A stretch of 38,291 nucleotides of DNA from Actinomycetota bacterium (GTDB taxonomy: Bacteria; Actinomycetota; Thermoleophilia; Gaiellales; Gaiellaceae), in NCBI GenBank assembly GCA_005883335.1, contig VAXM01000073.1, positions 1 to 38,291 of the forward strand, given 5' to 3'. How positions within the stretch are numbered: position 1 is the stretch's first letter; each line of letters opens with the position of its first letter. A program made the translations under genes and the position numbers. Below are positions 11,882 to 34,646 of this stretch, piece by piece. Under the pieces are notes generated by a model that was not told the DNA's origin, searched no databases, and was given only the letters and a program-made list of their open reading frames with translations.

Positions 11882-12934
11882 GTGAAGGGTCGGCTTCTTG
11901 TCGCCGCCGCGGCTCTCGTCCTCGTTGCACCAGTCCTCGCCGCTCGGCCCCAGGTGACCGGGCGTGCGTGGCTGGTCGAGAACGGAGCGACCGGCGAGGT
12001 GCTGCTCGTGCACAACGCGAGGCAGCGCGTGCCGATCGCCAGCATCACGAAGTTGATGACGGTCCTGCTCACGCTCGAGCACGTGCGGCTGAACGACGTC
12101 GTCACCGTCACGCGCGACGCCGCCTCCGTCGGCGAGTCATCGGCGAATCTGCGGCCCGGGGAGCGGCTCACGGTGCGCGAGCTGCTCGAGGCGGCGCTCA
12201 TCCAGAGCGCGAACGACGCGGCCGACGCGCTGGCCGACTACGTGGGGCACGGCAGCCAGGCCCGGTTCGTCGCGATGATGAACGCGCGCGCCCGTCGCCT
12301 CGGGCTGCGGAACACGCACTACGTGCGTCCCGACGGGCTGGACGCGGCAGGCCATTACTCGAGCGCGCGCGACGTCACGTTCCTCGCGCGCGTGCTGATG
12401 CACTACCCGGTCGTGCGGCAGATCGTGCGCCGCCGGACGGCCGCGATCACGGGCGCGTCGCTTCACACCTGGGGCTGGTCGGAGATCGCCGCGGCGCGGC
12501 GCGGCGGCGTCTCGATCTACGCGACCCTGATCGGCAGCCCCGACCGCGGCAGGCGGAACGCCGACCTGACGCGCCTGCTCGATTGGGGCTTCTCGCAGTA
12601 CGTCCGCGCTAGGCCGGTGGTCAAGGGGCGCGCTTACGCCGAGGCCCGGCTGGCGTACGGCCGCAGCCCGCTGAAGCTCATCGCCGCGGGCTCGCTGGCC
12701 GCCCCGTTCCGCGCCGGGCTTCCCGTCGTCCGGAGAGTCGTCTTTCCGGACGTGGTATCGCTGCCCGTGTCCAGGGGACAGTCCCTCGGAAAGGTCCGGA
12801 TCTACCAACGCGGAAGGCTCGTCGGCGCGGTTCCGCTCCTCGCCTCGCGCTCGGTCGGGCGCCCCGGGGTTGCCGGCCGCGCGGGCTGGTATGCGAGGCG
12901 TACCCTCCACCACATGGCCGGGTGGTTCTCGTGA
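11882..12934 (+). CDS. D-alanyl-D-alanine carboxypeptidase family protein lacking the KTG motif
   Basis: An S11-family penicillin-binding protein of 350 residues with a signal peptide (1-21). Family members remove the terminal D-Ala of peptidoglycan stem peptides outside the membrane. Two of the three active-site motifs are present: SITK (Ser54, Lys57) and SAN (109-111). The third, KTG, which normally sits between the HTW and the AGW-type strands, is absent. Residues 195-199 read HTWGW, joining the end of one conserved block directly to the next (GWSEIAAARR), as if about 22-25 codons were removed in frame. The C-terminal 110 residues form the usual beta domain. As read it should not be a working carboxypeptidase. 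It overlaps the next gene by 4 bases. Confidence 0.85.
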   Translation: MKGRLLVAAAALVLVAPVLAARPQVTGRAWLVENGATGEVLLVHNARQRVPIASITKLMTVLLTLEHVRLNDVVTVTRDAASVGESSANLRPGERLTVRELLEAALIQSANDAADALADYVGHGSQARFVAMMNARARRLGLRNTHYVRPDGLDAAGHYSSARDVTFLARVLMHYPVVRQIVRRRTAAITGASLHTWGWSEIAAARRGGVSIYATLIGSPDRGRRNADLTRLLDWGFSQYVRARPVVKGRAYAEARLAYGRSPLKLIAAGSLAAPFRAGLPVVRRVVFPDVVSLPVSRGQSLGKVRIYQRGRLVGAVPLLASRSVGRPGVAGRAGWYARRTLHHMAGWFS

Positions 12935-20513: not shown

Positions 20514-22340
20514 GTGTGCGGAATCATCGGCTACGTCGGCCACAGGCCATGTAAGGACCTCCTGCTGCAGGGGCTCGAGCGGCTGGAGTACCGCGGCTAC
20601 GACTCGGCCGGGATCGCGCTCCGGGAGGACGACGGCCTCGACTACGTGCGCGCGGTCGGGAACCTCCGCTTTCTGAAGGACGCGGCCGGCCAGAACGGCT
20701 CCGGCTCGACCACCGGGCTCGGGCACACGCGCTGGGCGACGCACGGAGCGGTCACCGAGCAGAACGCGCACCCGCTCACCGGTTGCGACGACGGCAAGCT
20801 CGCGATCGTGCTGAACGGGATCGTCGAGAACTACCGCGAGCTGAAGGGGGCACTCGAGGCCGATGCCCACACCTTCAGCTCCGAGACCGACGCCGAGGTT
20901 GTCGCCCACCTGATCGAGCGCCATTACCGGGGCAATCTGACCGAGGCCGTGCTCGCGGCGTACAGGGAGCTCGAAGGGCACTTCGCGTTCGTCGTCATCC
21001 ACGACGACCATCCGGACGAGCTCGTCGGCGCCCGCATCCAGTGCCCCCTCCTGGTCGGCGTGGGGGACGGCGAGATGTTCCTCGCCTCGGCCTCGGCTGC
21101 GTTCCTACGCGAGACGCGCCAGATCCAGCTGATCGAGGACGGCGAGATCGTGTCCATCACCCCCGAGGGCGCCGCTTTCACGAGTGTCGAGAGTGGGGCC
21201 GTCGAGCGCGAGGTGATCGACGTCGACTGGGACGACGAGGAGGCCGAGAAGTCGGGCTACGAGACCTTCATGCTGAAGGAGATCTACGAGCAGCCGGAGG
21301 GCGTCCGGGAGACGATCGGCGACCGCGTCCGGCACGGGAAGCTCATCCTCGAGAGCCTCGGCCTATCCGACCAGCAGATCGGCAACCTGCGGCGGATCGT
21401 GATCCTCGCGTGCGGCACCTCGTACCACGCGGGAGTGGTCGGTCGCTACGTGATCGAGGAGTGGGCGCGGATCCCGGTCGAGCCCGACATCGCGAGCGAG
21501 TGGCGCTACCGGAACCCGGTGCTCTCGAAGGACACGCTCGTGATCGGCATCTCCCAGTCGGGCGAGACCGCCGACCTGATCGCGGCGATGAAGCTCGCGC
21601 GGGAGAAGGGTGCGCGTACGGTGGCGATCACGAACCACATGGGCTCCCAGATCACGCGGGAGGTCGACTCGGTCGTCTACACGCGCACCGGGCTCGAGGT
21701 GGGCGTCGCGGCGTCGAAGACGTTCACGGCCCAGGTGGCTCTCTTGAGCCTGATCGCGCTGAAGCTCGCGCAGGTGAAACGGACGCTCCCCGACGACGAG
21801 GTCGAGTTCATCCTGGACGAGCTCTACGACCTTCCGAACCGGATGGCGGACTTCCTCGACGGCAACCATCCGATCGAGGAGATCGCACAGCGCTACTACG
21901 ACAAGCCGTTCTTCCTCTACCTCGGCCGGCACATCGGCCTGCCGGTCTGCCTCGAGGGCGCGCTCAAGCTGAAGGAGATCGCGTACGTGCCGACCGAGGC
22001 GTACTCGGCGGGCGAGATGAAGCACGGGCCGATCGCGCTGCTCGACCAGGACACCCCGGTCGTCTGCGTGGCCACCGATTCGCACGTCTACGACAAGGTC
22101 GTCTCCAACATCCAGGAGACGCGGGCCCGCGGCGCCCACGTGATCGCGATCGCGACGGACGGCAACGAGGACATCCAGCACCACGCGGACGACGTGATCT
22201 ACGTGCCCAAGACGCCCGCGTTCCTGCAGGCCGTGCTCGCGGTCTTGCCTCTGCAACTGCTGGCCTACCGGATCGCGCGCCTGCGGGGCCTGAACGTCGA
22301 CCAGCCGCGCAACCTGGCGAAGACCGTCACCGTCGAGTAA
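20514..22340 (+). CDS. glmS: glutamine-fructose-6-phosphate aminotransferase (isomerising)
   Basis: GlmS makes glucosamine-6-phosphate from fructose-6-phosphate and glutamine, the first step to UDP-GlcNAc and the substrate of the neighbouring GlmM. The 608-residue protein begins M-CGIIGYVGH, where Cys2 becomes the N-terminal nucleophile. This fixes the GTG start at 20514, backed by a GGGGGAGG ribosome site. The glutaminase domain has GLGHTRWATHG and LNGIVENYRELK. Two SIS sugar-isomerase domains follow, with GTSYHAGVVG, SQSGETADLI and the C-terminal NLAKTVTVE. The 66 bases before it are too short and lack the architecture of a glmS ribozyme. The end overlaps the convergent dehydrogenase gene by 14 bases. 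Confidence 0.97.
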   Translation: MCGIIGYVGHRPCKDLLLQGLERLEYRGYDSAGIALREDDGLDYVRAVGNLRFLKDAAGQNGSGSTTGLGHTRWATHGAVTEQNAHPLTGCDDGKLAIVLNGIVENYRELKGALEADAHTFSSETDAEVVAHLIERHYRGNLTEAVLAAYRELEGHFAFVVIHDDHPDELVGARIQCPLLVGVGDGEMFLASASAAFLRETRQIQLIEDGEIVSITPEGAAFTSVESGAVEREVIDVDWDDEEAEKSGYETFMLKEIYEQPEGVRETIGDRVRHGKLILESLGLSDQQIGNLRRIVILACGTSYHAGVVGRYVIEEWARIPVEPDIASEWRYRNPVLSKDTLVIGISQSGETADLIAAMKLAREKGARTVAITNHMGSQITREVDSVVYTRTGLEVGVAASKTFTAQVALLSLIALKLAQVKRTLPDDEVEFILDELYDLPNRMADFLDGNHPIEEIAQRYYDKPFFLYLGRHIGLPVCLEGALKLKEIAYVPTEAYSAGEMKHGPIALLDQDTPVVCVATDSHVYDKVVSNIQETRARGAHVIAIATDGNEDIQHHADDVIYVPKTPAFLQAVLAVLPLQLLAYRIARLRGLNVDQPRNLAKTVTVE

Positions 22341-30733: not shown

Positions 30734-31092
30734 TGCGCATCGGCATCGACCTGATCGAGATCCCGCGGATCGCCCGCGCGCTCGAGCGCTACCCGGGCTT
30801 CCGCGAGCGCTGCTTCACCGAGGCCGAGCGCGAGTACTGCGAGGGCCGCGCCAACCCGCCCCAGCACTACGCGGCCCGCTTCGCCGGCAAAGAGGCCGTC
30901 GGGAAGGCTCTCGGCTCAGGAGTTCGCTTCACGTGGCGGGAGATCGAGATCGCCGGCCGGCCGAAGCCGGGGGTGACGCTCTCGGGCCGGACGCTGGCGT
31001 GGGCGGAGCGCGTGGGGGCGGGGGCGATCGACCTCTCGATGACGCACTCGCGCGAGCTCGCTACTGCCGTGTGCGTCGTCTCGGATGCTTGA
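30733..31092 (+). CDS. acpS: holo-(acyl-carrier-protein) synthase
   Basis: AcpS transfers 4'-phosphopantetheine from coenzyme A to the serine of acyl carrier protein. The 119-residue protein has the family motifs GIDLIEIPRIARAL (metal-binding Asp), RCFTEAEREYC, and ARFAGKEAVGKALG (KEA motif with catalytic Glu/Lys). VTLSGRT and a C-terminal SMTHSRELATAV strand follow. GTG 30733 overlaps the upstream stop by one base. It is followed with an 8-base overlap by the NAD(P)HX repair gene, a pairing common in many bacteria. Confidence 0.94.
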   Translation: MRIGIDLIEIPRIARALERYPGFRERCFTEAEREYCEGRANPPQHYAARFAGKEAVGKALGSGVRFTWREIEIAGRPKPGVTLSGRTLAWAERVGAGAIDLSMTHSRELATAVCVVSDA

Positions 31093-32440
31093 GCCGCTCT
31101 ACACCGCGGACGAGATGCGCGCGGCCGAGGCGGGCCACGACGTCGAGCAACTGATGGCCCGTGCCGGCCGCGCGGTTGCCGAAGAGGCGATGCGCCGATT
31201 CCCGCAGGCGCGGCGGTTCGTCGCGGTCTGCGGCAGCGGTGCGAACGGCGGCGACGGGCGGATCGCCGTGGACGTCCTGCGCTCCGCCGGGCGGGACGCG
31301 GTCGTCGCCGACGACTTGGCGGGGGCCGATGTGATCGTGGACGCGCTTTTCGGGACCGGCTTCCACGGCGAGCCGCGCGAGGACGCGGCGCGGAAGATCG
31401 AGGCGATCAACGCTGCGGGCGCGCCGGTCGTCGCGGTCGACCTGCCGTCCGGGGTCAACGCGTCTACGGGCGAGGTTGCCGGCGCCTGCGTCGATGCGAC
31501 GCTCTCGGTGACGATGCACGGCCGGAAGGTCGGCCTCGAGGTCGCTCCGGGCCGCTTCCACGCCGGCGAGGTCGTCGTCGCCGACATCGGGCTCGAGCGG
31601 CGCGAGACGGAGCTCCGGCTCGTGACCACAGCGATCCTCGAGCAGGTCCCGCGCAAGCGGCCCGACCAGAACAAGTACTCGGCCGGCACGGTGCTGGTCG
31701 TCGGCGGCTCGCGCGGCTTGACCGGGGCACCGTCGCTCGCCGCCGAGGCGGCCTTCCGCGCGGACGCGGGCTACGTGGCGGTCGCCGTGCCCGACTCGAC
31801 GCTGCCGGTCTTCGAGCAGCGGCTGCTCGAGGCGGTGAAGCTCCCGTGCCCGGAGGACGAGGGCAAGATCTCGCCGCGGGCGATCGAGCCGATCGTCGAG
31901 TTCGCGGGGAAGGCAGGCGCCGTCGCGCTCGGCCCGGGGCTCGGGCGCGGGCCGGGGCCGAAGGAGGTCGTTGCCCGGCTGCTGGCCGAGCTCGAGACGC
32001 CGGTGGTCGTGGACGCCGATGCGCTCTTCGAGCTCGAGCCGTTCGAGCGCTCGGCACCGACGGTCCTGACACCGCACGAGGGCGAGCTCGCGCGCCTGCT
32101 CGGCGAGGAGTCGAGCTGGGTCGCGGCGCACCGGGTCGAAGCCGCGAGGCGGGGAGCGGAGAAGTTCGGCTGCGTCTGCCTGCTGAAGGGCGCCGACACG
32201 CTGATCGCAGAGCCCGCCTCGGGCATCTGGGTCTGCGCCCTCGGCACCCCCGCGCTTGCGACCGCCGGCAGCGGCGACGTCCTCACCGGCGTCGTGTCCG
32301 CGTTCCTCGCGAAAGGGCTCGGCGCCGGACTCGCGGCGGCCGCTGCCGCGGCTGCGTGCCAGCTCGCGTCGAGAGAGATCCCGCAGCGCGGTGCCGTGGC
32401 AAGCGACGTCATTCACGCGCTTCCAGCTGCGTTGAACTAG
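31085..32440 (+). CDS. nnr: bifunctional NAD(P)HX epimerase / ADP-dependent NAD(P)HX dehydratase
   Basis: A metabolite-repair enzyme that reverts hydrated NADH and NADPH. The N-terminal YjeF_N domain (about 1-185) epimerises R- and S-NADHX and shows CGSGANGGDGRIAVDVL and VDLPSGVNASTGEVAG. The C-terminal carbohydrate-kinase-like domain (about 195-451) dehydrates S-NADHX with ADP and shows GTVLVVGGSRGLTGAPSLAAEAA, LTPHEGELARLLG, LLKGADTLIAEP, and ATAGSGDVLTGVVSAFLAKGL. At 451 residues it is slightly shorter than usual because the first domain is compact. The ATG overlaps acpS by 8 bases. Confidence 0.94.
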   Translation: MLEPLYTADEMRAAEAGHDVEQLMARAGRAVAEEAMRRFPQARRFVAVCGSGANGGDGRIAVDVLRSAGRDAVVADDLAGADVIVDALFGTGFHGEPREDAARKIEAINAAGAPVVAVDLPSGVNASTGEVAGACVDATLSVTMHGRKVGLEVAPGRFHAGEVVVADIGLERRETELRLVTTAILEQVPRKRPDQNKYSAGTVLVVGGSRGLTGAPSLAAEAAFRADAGYVAVAVPDSTLPVFEQRLLEAVKLPCPEDEGKISPRAIEPIVEFAGKAGAVALGPGLGRGPGPKEVVARLLAELETPVVVDADALFELEPFERSAPTVLTPHEGELARLLGEESSWVAAHRVEAARRGAEKFGCVCLLKGADTLIAEPASGIWVCALGTPALATAGSGDVLTGVVSAFLAKGLGAGLAAAAAAAACQLASREIPQRGAVASDVIHALPAALN

Positions 32441-32443
32441 GTC

Positions 32444-32490
32444 GGTTCAGTCTGGTCGAACCAGCTGGTTCAGTGCCGCCGAACCAGCTG
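32444..32490. promoter_or_regulatory. operator array: two 23-bp-spaced copies of GGTTCAGT-N6-GAACCAGCTG
   Basis: GGTTCAGT occurs at 32444-32451 and 32467-32474; GAACCAGCTG at 32458-32467 and 32481-32490. The half-sites GGTTC and GAACC alternate in orientation. Between the two units they create a perfect 14-bp palindrome, GAACCAGCTGGTTC (32458-32471). The period is 23 bp, about two helical turns, so dimers would bind on one face. The array covers the -35 region of the promoter whose -10 is TAGCGT at 32492-32497. Confidence 0.75.
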
Positions 32491-32491
32491 C

Positions 32492-32497
32492 TAGCGT
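32492..32497 (+). promoter_or_regulatory. -10 box of the AAA ATPase gene, leaderless start
   Basis: TAGCGT (32492-32497) ends 6 nt before GTG 32504. With a 17-base spacer the -35 would be TTCAGT (32469-32474), which lies inside the palindromic operator. Confidence 0.55.
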
Positions 32498-32503
32498 CTG
32501 GGC

Positions 32504-33637
32504 GTGGCCGACGTCAACCCATTCGTCTACTCGCGACCGCTTGCACCCGAGGACGTGCTCGACCGCGAGCCGGAGATCAGGCAGCTGCTCTCGCTCGCCG
32601 CCGGCGGCCACTACGTGCGTCTCTACGCGCCGCGGCGGTTCGGCAAGACGAGCCTCCTCGGCAAGGCGTTCGCCGAGGCCGAGCGCGGCGGCGAGCTCGT
32701 TCCGGTGCTGGTCGACCTCTACGGCGTGCTCAGCTACGCGGACGTGACGATCCGGATCGAGCGCGCGTATGCGCAGCTGAAAGGGACGATCCGCAAGACG
32801 ATCGAGGCGATCCTCCGCACGACAGGGCTCGGGCTGTCGCTCGGCGCGCCGGGGATCTCCGTCAAGCTCCAGCTCGAGCCGCGCACCGACCCTCTGCCGG
32901 CCCTGCACGCGCTGCTCGACCTCCCGCAGCGCGTCGCCGAGCGCAGCGGCACCCGCGTCTTCGTCGCCCTGGACGAGTTCCAGGACATCGCCAAGGTGCA
33001 GGACTTCGACAAGCTCCTGCGCAGCCACATCCAGCACCAGGGCGAGTCGGCGTCGTACATCTTCTGCGGCTCGGAACCGGGGATGATGCGCGAGCTGTTC
33101 GACGTCAAGGGCCGGCCGCTCTACGGCCAGGCTGAGCCGTTGCGGCTCGGGCGGCTGCCAGACGGCGAGGTCGCGGCCTACATCGCGGAGCGGTTCGCCC
33201 GCACCAAGCGCAGCGCCGACCTCGTCCTCGACGCGCTGCTGGCGACCGCGCGCGGTCATCCTCAGCGGGCGATGCTGCTCGCCCACCGTCTCTGGGACGA
33301 AGTCGGTCCCGGCAAGGCCGCCGACGAAGACGACTGGCAGAACGCGCTCGCCCGGACACGTAACCAGGTCGCGGCGGAATTCGACGCGCTCTGGCGCGGT
33401 CTGGAGGCGAACGAGCAGCGGGCCCTGCGCGCGATCGCGCTCTTCCCCGAGGCGCCCTACGGCGCGCGGGCGCTGGGCGCGGTCGACCTGAAGAAATCCG
33501 GGGCGCACTACGCGGTGCGCTCTCTGCTCGCGAAGGGCGAGCTCGAGGAGGAGAGCGGCCGCACCGTCTTCGTCGATCCGCTCTTCGAGCTCTGGCTGAA
33601 CGACGTCCAGCGAGGACGGGAAGATGCACCGCTCTGA
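32504..33637 (+). CDS. AAA-type ATPase of the archaeal ATPase_2 family
   Basis: A 377-residue P-loop ATPase. Walker A is APRRFGKTS (42-50, Lys48), Walker B VFVALDEFQD (about 152-161), and the sensor strand is YIFCGSEPG (185-193). A C-terminal winged-helix-like segment (about 310-370) has ALRAIALFPEAPYGARAL and a beta wing ending FVDPLFELWL. This is the ATPase_2/STAND-like layout common in archaea and scattered in bacteria, with cellular roles mostly unknown. GTG 32504 lies 6 nt after TAGCGT and an operator array, suggesting tight control. It is inserted between nnr and alr, genes that are usually close together. It overlaps alr by 14 bases, so alr expression depends on it. Confidence 0.83.
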   Translation: MADVNPFVYSRPLAPEDVLDREPEIRQLLSLAAGGHYVRLYAPRRFGKTSLLGKAFAEAERGGELVPVLVDLYGVLSYADVTIRIERAYAQLKGTIRKTIEAILRTTGLGLSLGAPGISVKLQLEPRTDPLPALHALLDLPQRVAERSGTRVFVALDEFQDIAKVQDFDKLLRSHIQHQGESASYIFCGSEPGMMRELFDVKGRPLYGQAEPLRLGRLPDGEVAAYIAERFARTKRSADLVLDALLATARGHPQRAMLLAHRLWDEVGPGKAADEDDWQNALARTRNQVAAEFDALWRGLEANEQRALRAIALFPEAPYGARALGAVDLKKSGAHYAVRSLLAKGELEEESGRTVFVDPLFELWLNDVQRGREDAPL

Positions 33638-34646
33638 GGTGACGGTCGACCTCGGCGCGGTGCGGCGCAACGCGCGCACGTTGCTGCGCGCGCTCGAGGG
33701 CTCGCAGCTCTGGGCGGTCGTGAAGGCGAACGCCTACGGGCACGGCGCAGTCGACGTCGCGGGTGCGGTCGTGGACGAGGGGGCGGGGGCGCTCTGCGTC
33801 GCGACGGTCACGGAAGGCCTCGAGCTGCGCGCGGAGTTCTCGCTGATCCGGATCCTGGTCATGGGGCCGACCGCGTCGAGCCGCGAGATCGCCGAGGCGC
33901 GGGAGGCGAAGCTCGAGCTCGCGGTCTGGGACGAGGAGATTCCCGAGGGCGTGCGGGTGCACCTGAAGCTCGACACGGGGATGGGCCGCTGGGGCCTCGC
34001 GGAGCTGCAGAAGCCCGGGGCGGAGGTGGTCGGCCTGATGACGCACCTCGCGACCGCCGAGAGCGACCCAGACTACGCGGCGAAGCAGATCGAGCTCTTC
34101 CGCACCGTGACCGAGCAGTACTCCGACCTGATGCGCCACGCGGCGAACAGCGCGGCCGCGTTGCGGCTGCCGTCGTCCCGCTTCGACGCGGCGCGCTGCG
34201 GGATCGCGCTCTACGGGCTCTCGCCCTTTGGTGAGGACCCGGCCGCGGACGGGCTCGAGCCTGCGCTCTCCTGGCGTAGCTATCTCGCGCAGGTCAAGCA
34301 GCTGCAGCCGGGAGAGAGCACGGGCTATGGGCGCCGCTTCGTCGCCGAGGAGCCGACCTGGATCGGGATCGTTCCGGTCGGCTACGCGGACGGTTTCCGC
34401 CGCGACCTGACCGGAACGGAGGTGCGGGTGAGCGGCGAGCCGCGGGGTGTGGTGGGGACGATCTCGATGGACGCGTTCGCGGTCGAGCTGGAGCGTGAGG
34501 AGCCGGTCGGCGCGCCGGTCACGATCCTCGGGCAGGGCGTCCTCGCCGAGGAGCACGCGCGTGTCGCGGGGACGATCAACTACGAGCTCGTCTGCGGCAT
34601 CCGCGCGGACCCGAGGCGGGCGCGGAGGGTCGTCGTCGATGCTTGA
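33624..34646 (+). CDS. alr: alanine racemase
   Basis: A PLP enzyme interconverting L- and D-alanine for peptidoglycan. The 340-residue protein is a little shorter than the usual 360-390. The PLP-binding loop VVKANAYGHGA holds the Schiff-base Lys (Lys34 or 35). HLKLDTGMGRWGL, HAANSAA and ARCGIALYGLSPFG follow. The second catalytic residue, Tyr, is in STGYGRRFV. The end has VGYADGFRRDL, GTISMDAFAVEL and the GTINYELVCGI motif. The ATG lies inside the 3' end of the ATPase gene. The nearby murI would supply the other D-amino acid. Confidence 0.95.
   Translation: MHRSEVTVDLGAVRRNARTLLRALEGSQLWAVVKANAYGHGAVDVAGAVVDEGAGALCVATVTEGLELRAEFSLIRILVMGPTASSREIAEAREAKLELAVWDEEIPEGVRVHLKLDTGMGRWGLAELQKPGAEVVGLMTHLATAESDPDYAAKQIELFRTVTEQYSDLMRHAANSAAALRLPSSRFDAARCGIALYGLSPFGEDPAADGLEPALSWRSYLAQVKQLQPGESTGYGRRFVAEEPTWIGIVPVGYADGFRRDLTGTEVRVSGEPRGVVGTISMDAFAVELEREEPVGAPVTILGQGVLAEEHARVAGTINYELVCGIRADPRRARRVVVDA

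Follow-up and report, generated by a model that had tools for sequence, protein, structure and literature searches.

An AAA+ ATPase resembling Orc1 and SSO1545 very probably binds a private operator array at its own promoter, where it would probably act as an autorepressor. The gene (32504 to 33637, + strand; 377 amino acids, GTG start) lies in the window, the whole 38,291-nucleotide stretch of DNA analyzed here. Evidence for this reading was obtained by computation and comprises array conservation, a period that differs by subfamily, array sequences that covary with the recognition helix, a single genomic target, and an empty insertion site in relatives.

Operator-like array and promoter

The array was read directly at 32444 to 32485 and is composed of pentameric half-sites that alternate as GGTTC (32444 to 32448), GAACC (32458 to 32462), GGTTC (32467 to 32471), and GAACC (32481 to 32485). 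A 19-bp unit, GGTTC-N9-GAACC, is therefore present twice at an exact 23-bp period. Unit 1 (GGTTCAGTCTGGTCGAACC; 32444 to 32462, + strand) contains half-sites 1 and 2, which are invariant in two congeners, and unit 2 (GGTTCAGTGCCGCCGAACC; 32467 to 32485, + strand), containing half-sites 3 and 4, lies 23 bp downstream. As a direct repeat, the array has a length of 23 nt, a period of 23, and 83% identity between copies. The two exact matches to GGTTC-N9-GAACC in the window both fall in the array, and 0.93 matches would be expected with one mismatch allowed. The two unit copies and four alternating half-sites described in an earlier note on this DNA were thus recovered.

For comparison within the genus, the window was aligned with two congeneric genomes (L024 and L025), in which the ATPase gene is found at the same place. 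Across the three genomes, 31 of the 42 array columns were invariant, including all 20 half-site columns (hypergeometric P of about 2e-4). The 23-bp period was unchanged in both congeners, while the spacers drifted. The AGT behind each GGTTC and the C ahead of each GAACC were also kept, and the conserved unit by this comparison is GGTTCAGT-N5-CGAACC, occurring twice. The earlier note had also emphasized a perfect 14-bp palindrome in the middle of the array. In the window, this palindrome, GAACC-AGCT-GGTTC (GAACCAGCTGGTTC; 32458 to 32471), formed by half-sites 2 and 3, is indeed perfect, but its center reads AGCT, GATT, or AATC across the three genomes, and the trailing AGCTG likewise varies between congeners. 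Thus, the conserved unit consists of the half-sites and their spacing, not of the whole palindrome.

A -10-like TAGCGT lies at 32492 to 32497 (+ strand), and a weak -35-like hexamer, TTCAGT (32469 to 32474, + strand; a reading of the sequence alone), overlaps half-site 3 at a distance of 17 nt from the -10. The operator-like array thus covers the ATPase promoter next to the -10, as the earlier note had proposed. Because the GTG start codon at 32504 is 6 nt downstream of the -10, transcription beginning about 7 nt past the -10 would yield a leaderless mRNA. Most homologues carry TANNNT 6 to 12 nt upstream of the start codon, and Shine-Dalgarno-like motifs were detected in 2 of 92 homologues versus 9% in control stretches. 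The ATPase gene is probably leaderless; the position of TANNNT and the scarcity of Shine-Dalgarno-like motifs are consistent with leaderless transcription and with an array that overlies the promoter rather than forming part of an mRNA leader.

Arrays across the ATPase family

The DNA ahead of each start was read for 92 homologues drawn from whole genomes within the order and class, with start codons picked by script. The GGTTC sequence was not present outside the genus, and nearly every promoter had an array of its own. For example, L023 carries TGTACC-N8-GGTACA twice at 24 bp, L082 and L083 carry alternating GCTCT/AGAGC at 12 and 11 bp, and L048 carries TTGCGAGTCGCAA repeats at 15 bp. With a composition-weighted repeat statistic, which was used since the unweighted inverted-repeat statistic was confounded by GC-rich flanks, repeats were found within 100 bp upstream in 49% of loci versus 13% of same-locus flank controls at a P of ≤0.05 (n = 92; Mann-Whitney, 6e-16).

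The repeats were concentrated at a few spacings. Five-mer direct repeats were observed 178 times at 23 bp (20 expected), 99 times at 15 bp (23 expected), and 45 times at 46 bp (13 expected), most other offsets were at or under expectation, and inverted repeat pairs peaked at 9 to 14 bp. The nominal Poisson P values of these offsets are too strong, as overlapping 5-mers and related loci were counted, and the locus counts are the safer measure. By that measure, the 23-bp repeat occurred in 35 of 49 loci of the window's subfamily, a 15-bp repeat in 26 of 33 loci of a second subfamily, and a 24-bp repeat in 6 of 8 loci of a third. About one-quarter of loci were without a clear array by the crude scores used. 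The motif that the earlier note expected in orthologous promoters was therefore kept in its geometry across the subfamily, but in its sequence within the genus only.

An independent set, found later, consisted of 20 promoters of homologues from other classes of the phylum. With 53 offsets tested, the top offset was 15, 22, 23, or 24 bp in 11 of these. The cleanest array seen lies upstream of the ATPase homologue in L188, from a genome of another class of the phylum. It consists of three 22-bp repeats that are close to perfect and contain TGTGCTTTCAAAAGCAC. Homologues were also found on five large plasmids, and that of a Vibrio plasmid has 14-bp repeats. At another locus, L094 (G387:C95), two tandem homologues each have a GGTAC-type array to themselves, apparently because the gene was recently duplicated together with its operator.

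The whole-genome motif scan proposed in the earlier note did not reveal a regulon. Exact matches to the three-half-site core were found only at the ATPase gene, both in the window's 2.3-Mb, 185-contig draft genome and in the two congeners, and the GCTCT array in two other genomes likewise matched at the ATPase gene only. In none of the five genomes tested was the full array present elsewhere, and other occurrences of GGTTC-N9-GAACC in the genome were at the control level.

The winged helix as candidate reader of the array

The AlphaFold model of the ATPase (pLDDT, 94.8) ends in a winged helix (residues 302 to 356; 33407 to 33571, + strand), which bears out the winged-helix-like segment noticed earlier. 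Residues 331 to 344 (33494 to 33535, + strand) form its third helix, the modeled recognition helix, followed by a two-strand wing. Foldseek matched the model to 2qen (PAB2304; E value, 2e-14) and 2fna (SSO1545; E value, 1e-12) over about 380 columns in the same order, AAA+ and then winged helix. These two archaeal AAA+ ATPases of the ATPase_2 family ranked first, then Orc1/Cdc6, with NLR resistosomes lower in the list. The match to SSO1545 and PAB2304 spans the whole length (TM score, 0.70 to 0.75) at 18% identity. With Pfam ATPase_2 (PF01637), the window protein scored 31.0 bits, just under the cutoff of 33.2, and 52 of 92 homologues matched at an E value of ≤0.001; the fold clearly supports membership in this family, for which the score is borderline. 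A profile search of PDB sequences with the window protein returned 2qen, 2fna, and RecA constructs. Orc1/Cdc6 was not among the matches of that search, and Orc1/Cdc6 membership is not claimed. No defense-system model matched the window protein at an E value of ≤0.001, with weak matches in some homologues, and no relatives were found in the viral contigs searched.

Promoter sharing between homologues was 2.8, the shuffle level, at <30% winged-helix identity and 5.4 at >80%. In eleven same-genome paralogue pairs, mean promoter sharing was 2.81, and half-sites were not common to paralogues. This is the reverse of what would be predicted for a regulator common to the cell. Whole-domain Mantel tests did not separate the winged helix from the AAA domain; thus, a per-column test was used instead, in which overall identity was regressed out and relatedness was controlled approximately. 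Among 342 columns, residues 336 and 331 ranked highest for covariation with the promoter (residues 332 and 335 also covaried with the array), and the best 8-residue stretch of the whole protein was 331 to 338, the start of the recognition helix. This result was stable over five parameter settings and was obtained in clades 4 and 2 separately, that is, in the 23-bp and 15-bp subfamilies each. When flank DNA replaced the promoter, the helix stretch ranked 102nd, 94th, and 34th. The covariation was small, with a top partial r of 0.17 to 0.19 (0.33 in clade 2). Since residues 331 to 344 are the third helix of the modeled winged helix, the signal falls on the surface expected to contact DNA.

Sequence comparison thus strongly supports an ATPase that regulates its own gene by way of its winged helix. 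That the ATPase may be an autoregulator, as suggested in the earlier note, now appears very probable from the period of each subfamily and the recognition-helix covariation. We infer physical binding in which the array acts as the private operator of the directly downstream ATPase, whose C-terminal winged helix would read the half-sites, one protomer per half-site. A multiprotomer assembly on the four alternating half-sites would cover the DNA that precedes the -35 as well as that separating it from the -10. The outcome would most simply be autorepression, with the AAA+ domain gating it through its nucleotide state; judged from the position of the array, repression is the likely direction. Cooperative binding by a dimer is plausible. 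In such a scheme, the period, here 23 bp, would be set by subfamily architecture, half-sites and recognition helix would drift in sequence together, and gene and array would behave as one transferable cassette.

One locus stands apart from its group. In L073, the half-sites read AGGTGCC/GGTAGCC, not GTAGTC as in the group to which it belongs together with L069 and L011, and its recognition helix has S for D (TKSM versus TKDM). L073 is a possible specificity switch.

Alternative readings, known systems, and genomic setting

It is improbable that the ATPase is controlled by an unlinked regulator, such as an ArsR-family protein, bound at the central palindrome. Such a reading is prompted by a look-alike site, ATAGTGAACC-N4-GGTTCA, whose GAACC-N4-GGTTC pair occurs in all three genomes of the genus (G000:C163:23485-23504, or L230:1486-1505; also G001:C175 and G002:C53), where it overlaps both the GTG start codon and the -10 of an ArsR-like gene; an AHSA1/SRPBCC-like gene comes next. 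However, this site is without the outer half-sites and the 23-bp period. It rivals the ATPase for the central palindrome only. It was found in 18 of 399 class genomes, including genomes without a detected ATPase homologue and others whose arrays are spelled differently, which marks it as an independent operator. An ArsR-type protein also cannot explain why the period follows the subfamily or why the array covaries with the helix of the ATPase. We consider it equally improbable that the ATPase acts as an initiator with a specific site or as a partition-type protein, with the array as an Orc/ORB- or iteron-like replication or segregation site and autoregulation as a by-product. The fold in common with archaeal Orc1/Cdc6 and the homologues on large plasmids agree with such a role, and haloarchaeal initiators are encoded next to linked, specific origin boxes of their own (PMC3936714). 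Here, however, a single chromosomal gene lies in an operon with no adjoining replication genes, and its array is closely linked in position to the leaderless start and its -10.

An RNA element, either a terminator of the upstream gene nnr or a hairpin leader, is less probable still. An inverted repeat could form a perfect 10-bp stem (32462 to 32471 with 32481 to 32490) around a loop of 9 nt, but it lacks a T-run and precedes the -10 of a leaderless gene, the AGCT bases that lengthen the stem vary among congeners, and a hairpin would not be expected to show direct 23-bp periodicity. A LexA-type box, GAAC-N4-GTTC, was rejected on spacing, which is GAAC-N6-GTTC here.

Autoregulation by the ATPase resembles known systems in part. 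ArsR, TetR, and similar autoregulated dimeric repressors have inverted half-sites over their own promoters, as here, but no AAA+ domain and usually one palindrome, whereas the window array is multiunit with a fixed period. In the ATPase, too, operator-like sites lie over the gene's own promoter, and the specificity of the DNA-binding domain follows the operator, as judged indirectly from statistical covariation. As an analogy, the noninitiator Orc1-2 of Sulfolobales, an ATP-dependent transcription regulator that binds a motif in its own promoter (PMC9738581), offers a precedent for an AAA+ winged-helix protein at its own promoter. Orc1/Cdc6 proteins, including Orc1-2, have the AAA+ plus winged-helix fold in common with the window ATPase, a relatedness of structure, not of sequence. 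A regulon and a single asymmetric hexamer motif characterize Orc1-2, in contrast to the periodic multi-half-site array, subfamily-fixed spacing, and lack of a regulon here. IniR, a mycobacterial STAND ATPase activator, is a DNA-binding regulator whose N-terminal AAA+ domain is predicted to be most similar to SSO1545 (PMC5760070); it differs in its length (818 amino acids), its MalT-like sensor and SdiA-like DNA-binding domains, and its activation of iniBAC. For SSO1545 and PAB2304 themselves, no operator or DNA target was found in the open-access literature searched, nor was any description of such arrays; a prior report in subscription papers is possible.

The findings point to an uncharacterized family of self-regulating ATPases. 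A wider picture, offered tentatively, is one of widespread solitary switch ATPases, structurally between Orc1 and NLR-type STAND ATPases, whose own promoter is the sole conserved DNA target. Each might form a gene-plus-operator cassette with a private array, subfamily spacing (23, 24, or 15 bp), and a codrifting recognition helix; its role might be that of a nucleotide-gated sensor that regulates itself, or else that of a selfish or initiator-like unit. ATPase genes of this class are common, most have no known function, and a built-in array with a matched recognition helix would provide a testable DNA target for each. About a hundred natural protein-operator pairs might yield a recognition code and would also help to show how the nucleotide state of an AAA+ domain governs DNA binding in a fold common to Orc1 and NLR immune ATPases.

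The ATPase gene is flanked on the left by nnr (NAD(P)H-hydrate dehydratase; 31085 to 32440, + strand), and its stop is overlapped by alr (alanine racemase; 33624 to 34646, + strand). In relatives without the ATPase, the end of nnr directly abuts the start of alr, and in the genus the ATPase and a 63-bp upstream region are placed between them; thus, gene plus array form an inserted cassette. Given this position, control of the ATPase promoter probably also affects alr. The same contig carries a D-alanyl-D-alanine carboxypeptidase (Peptidase_S11) gene at 11882 to 12934 and a glmS-like gene at 20514 to 22340, placing several cell wall functions near each other.
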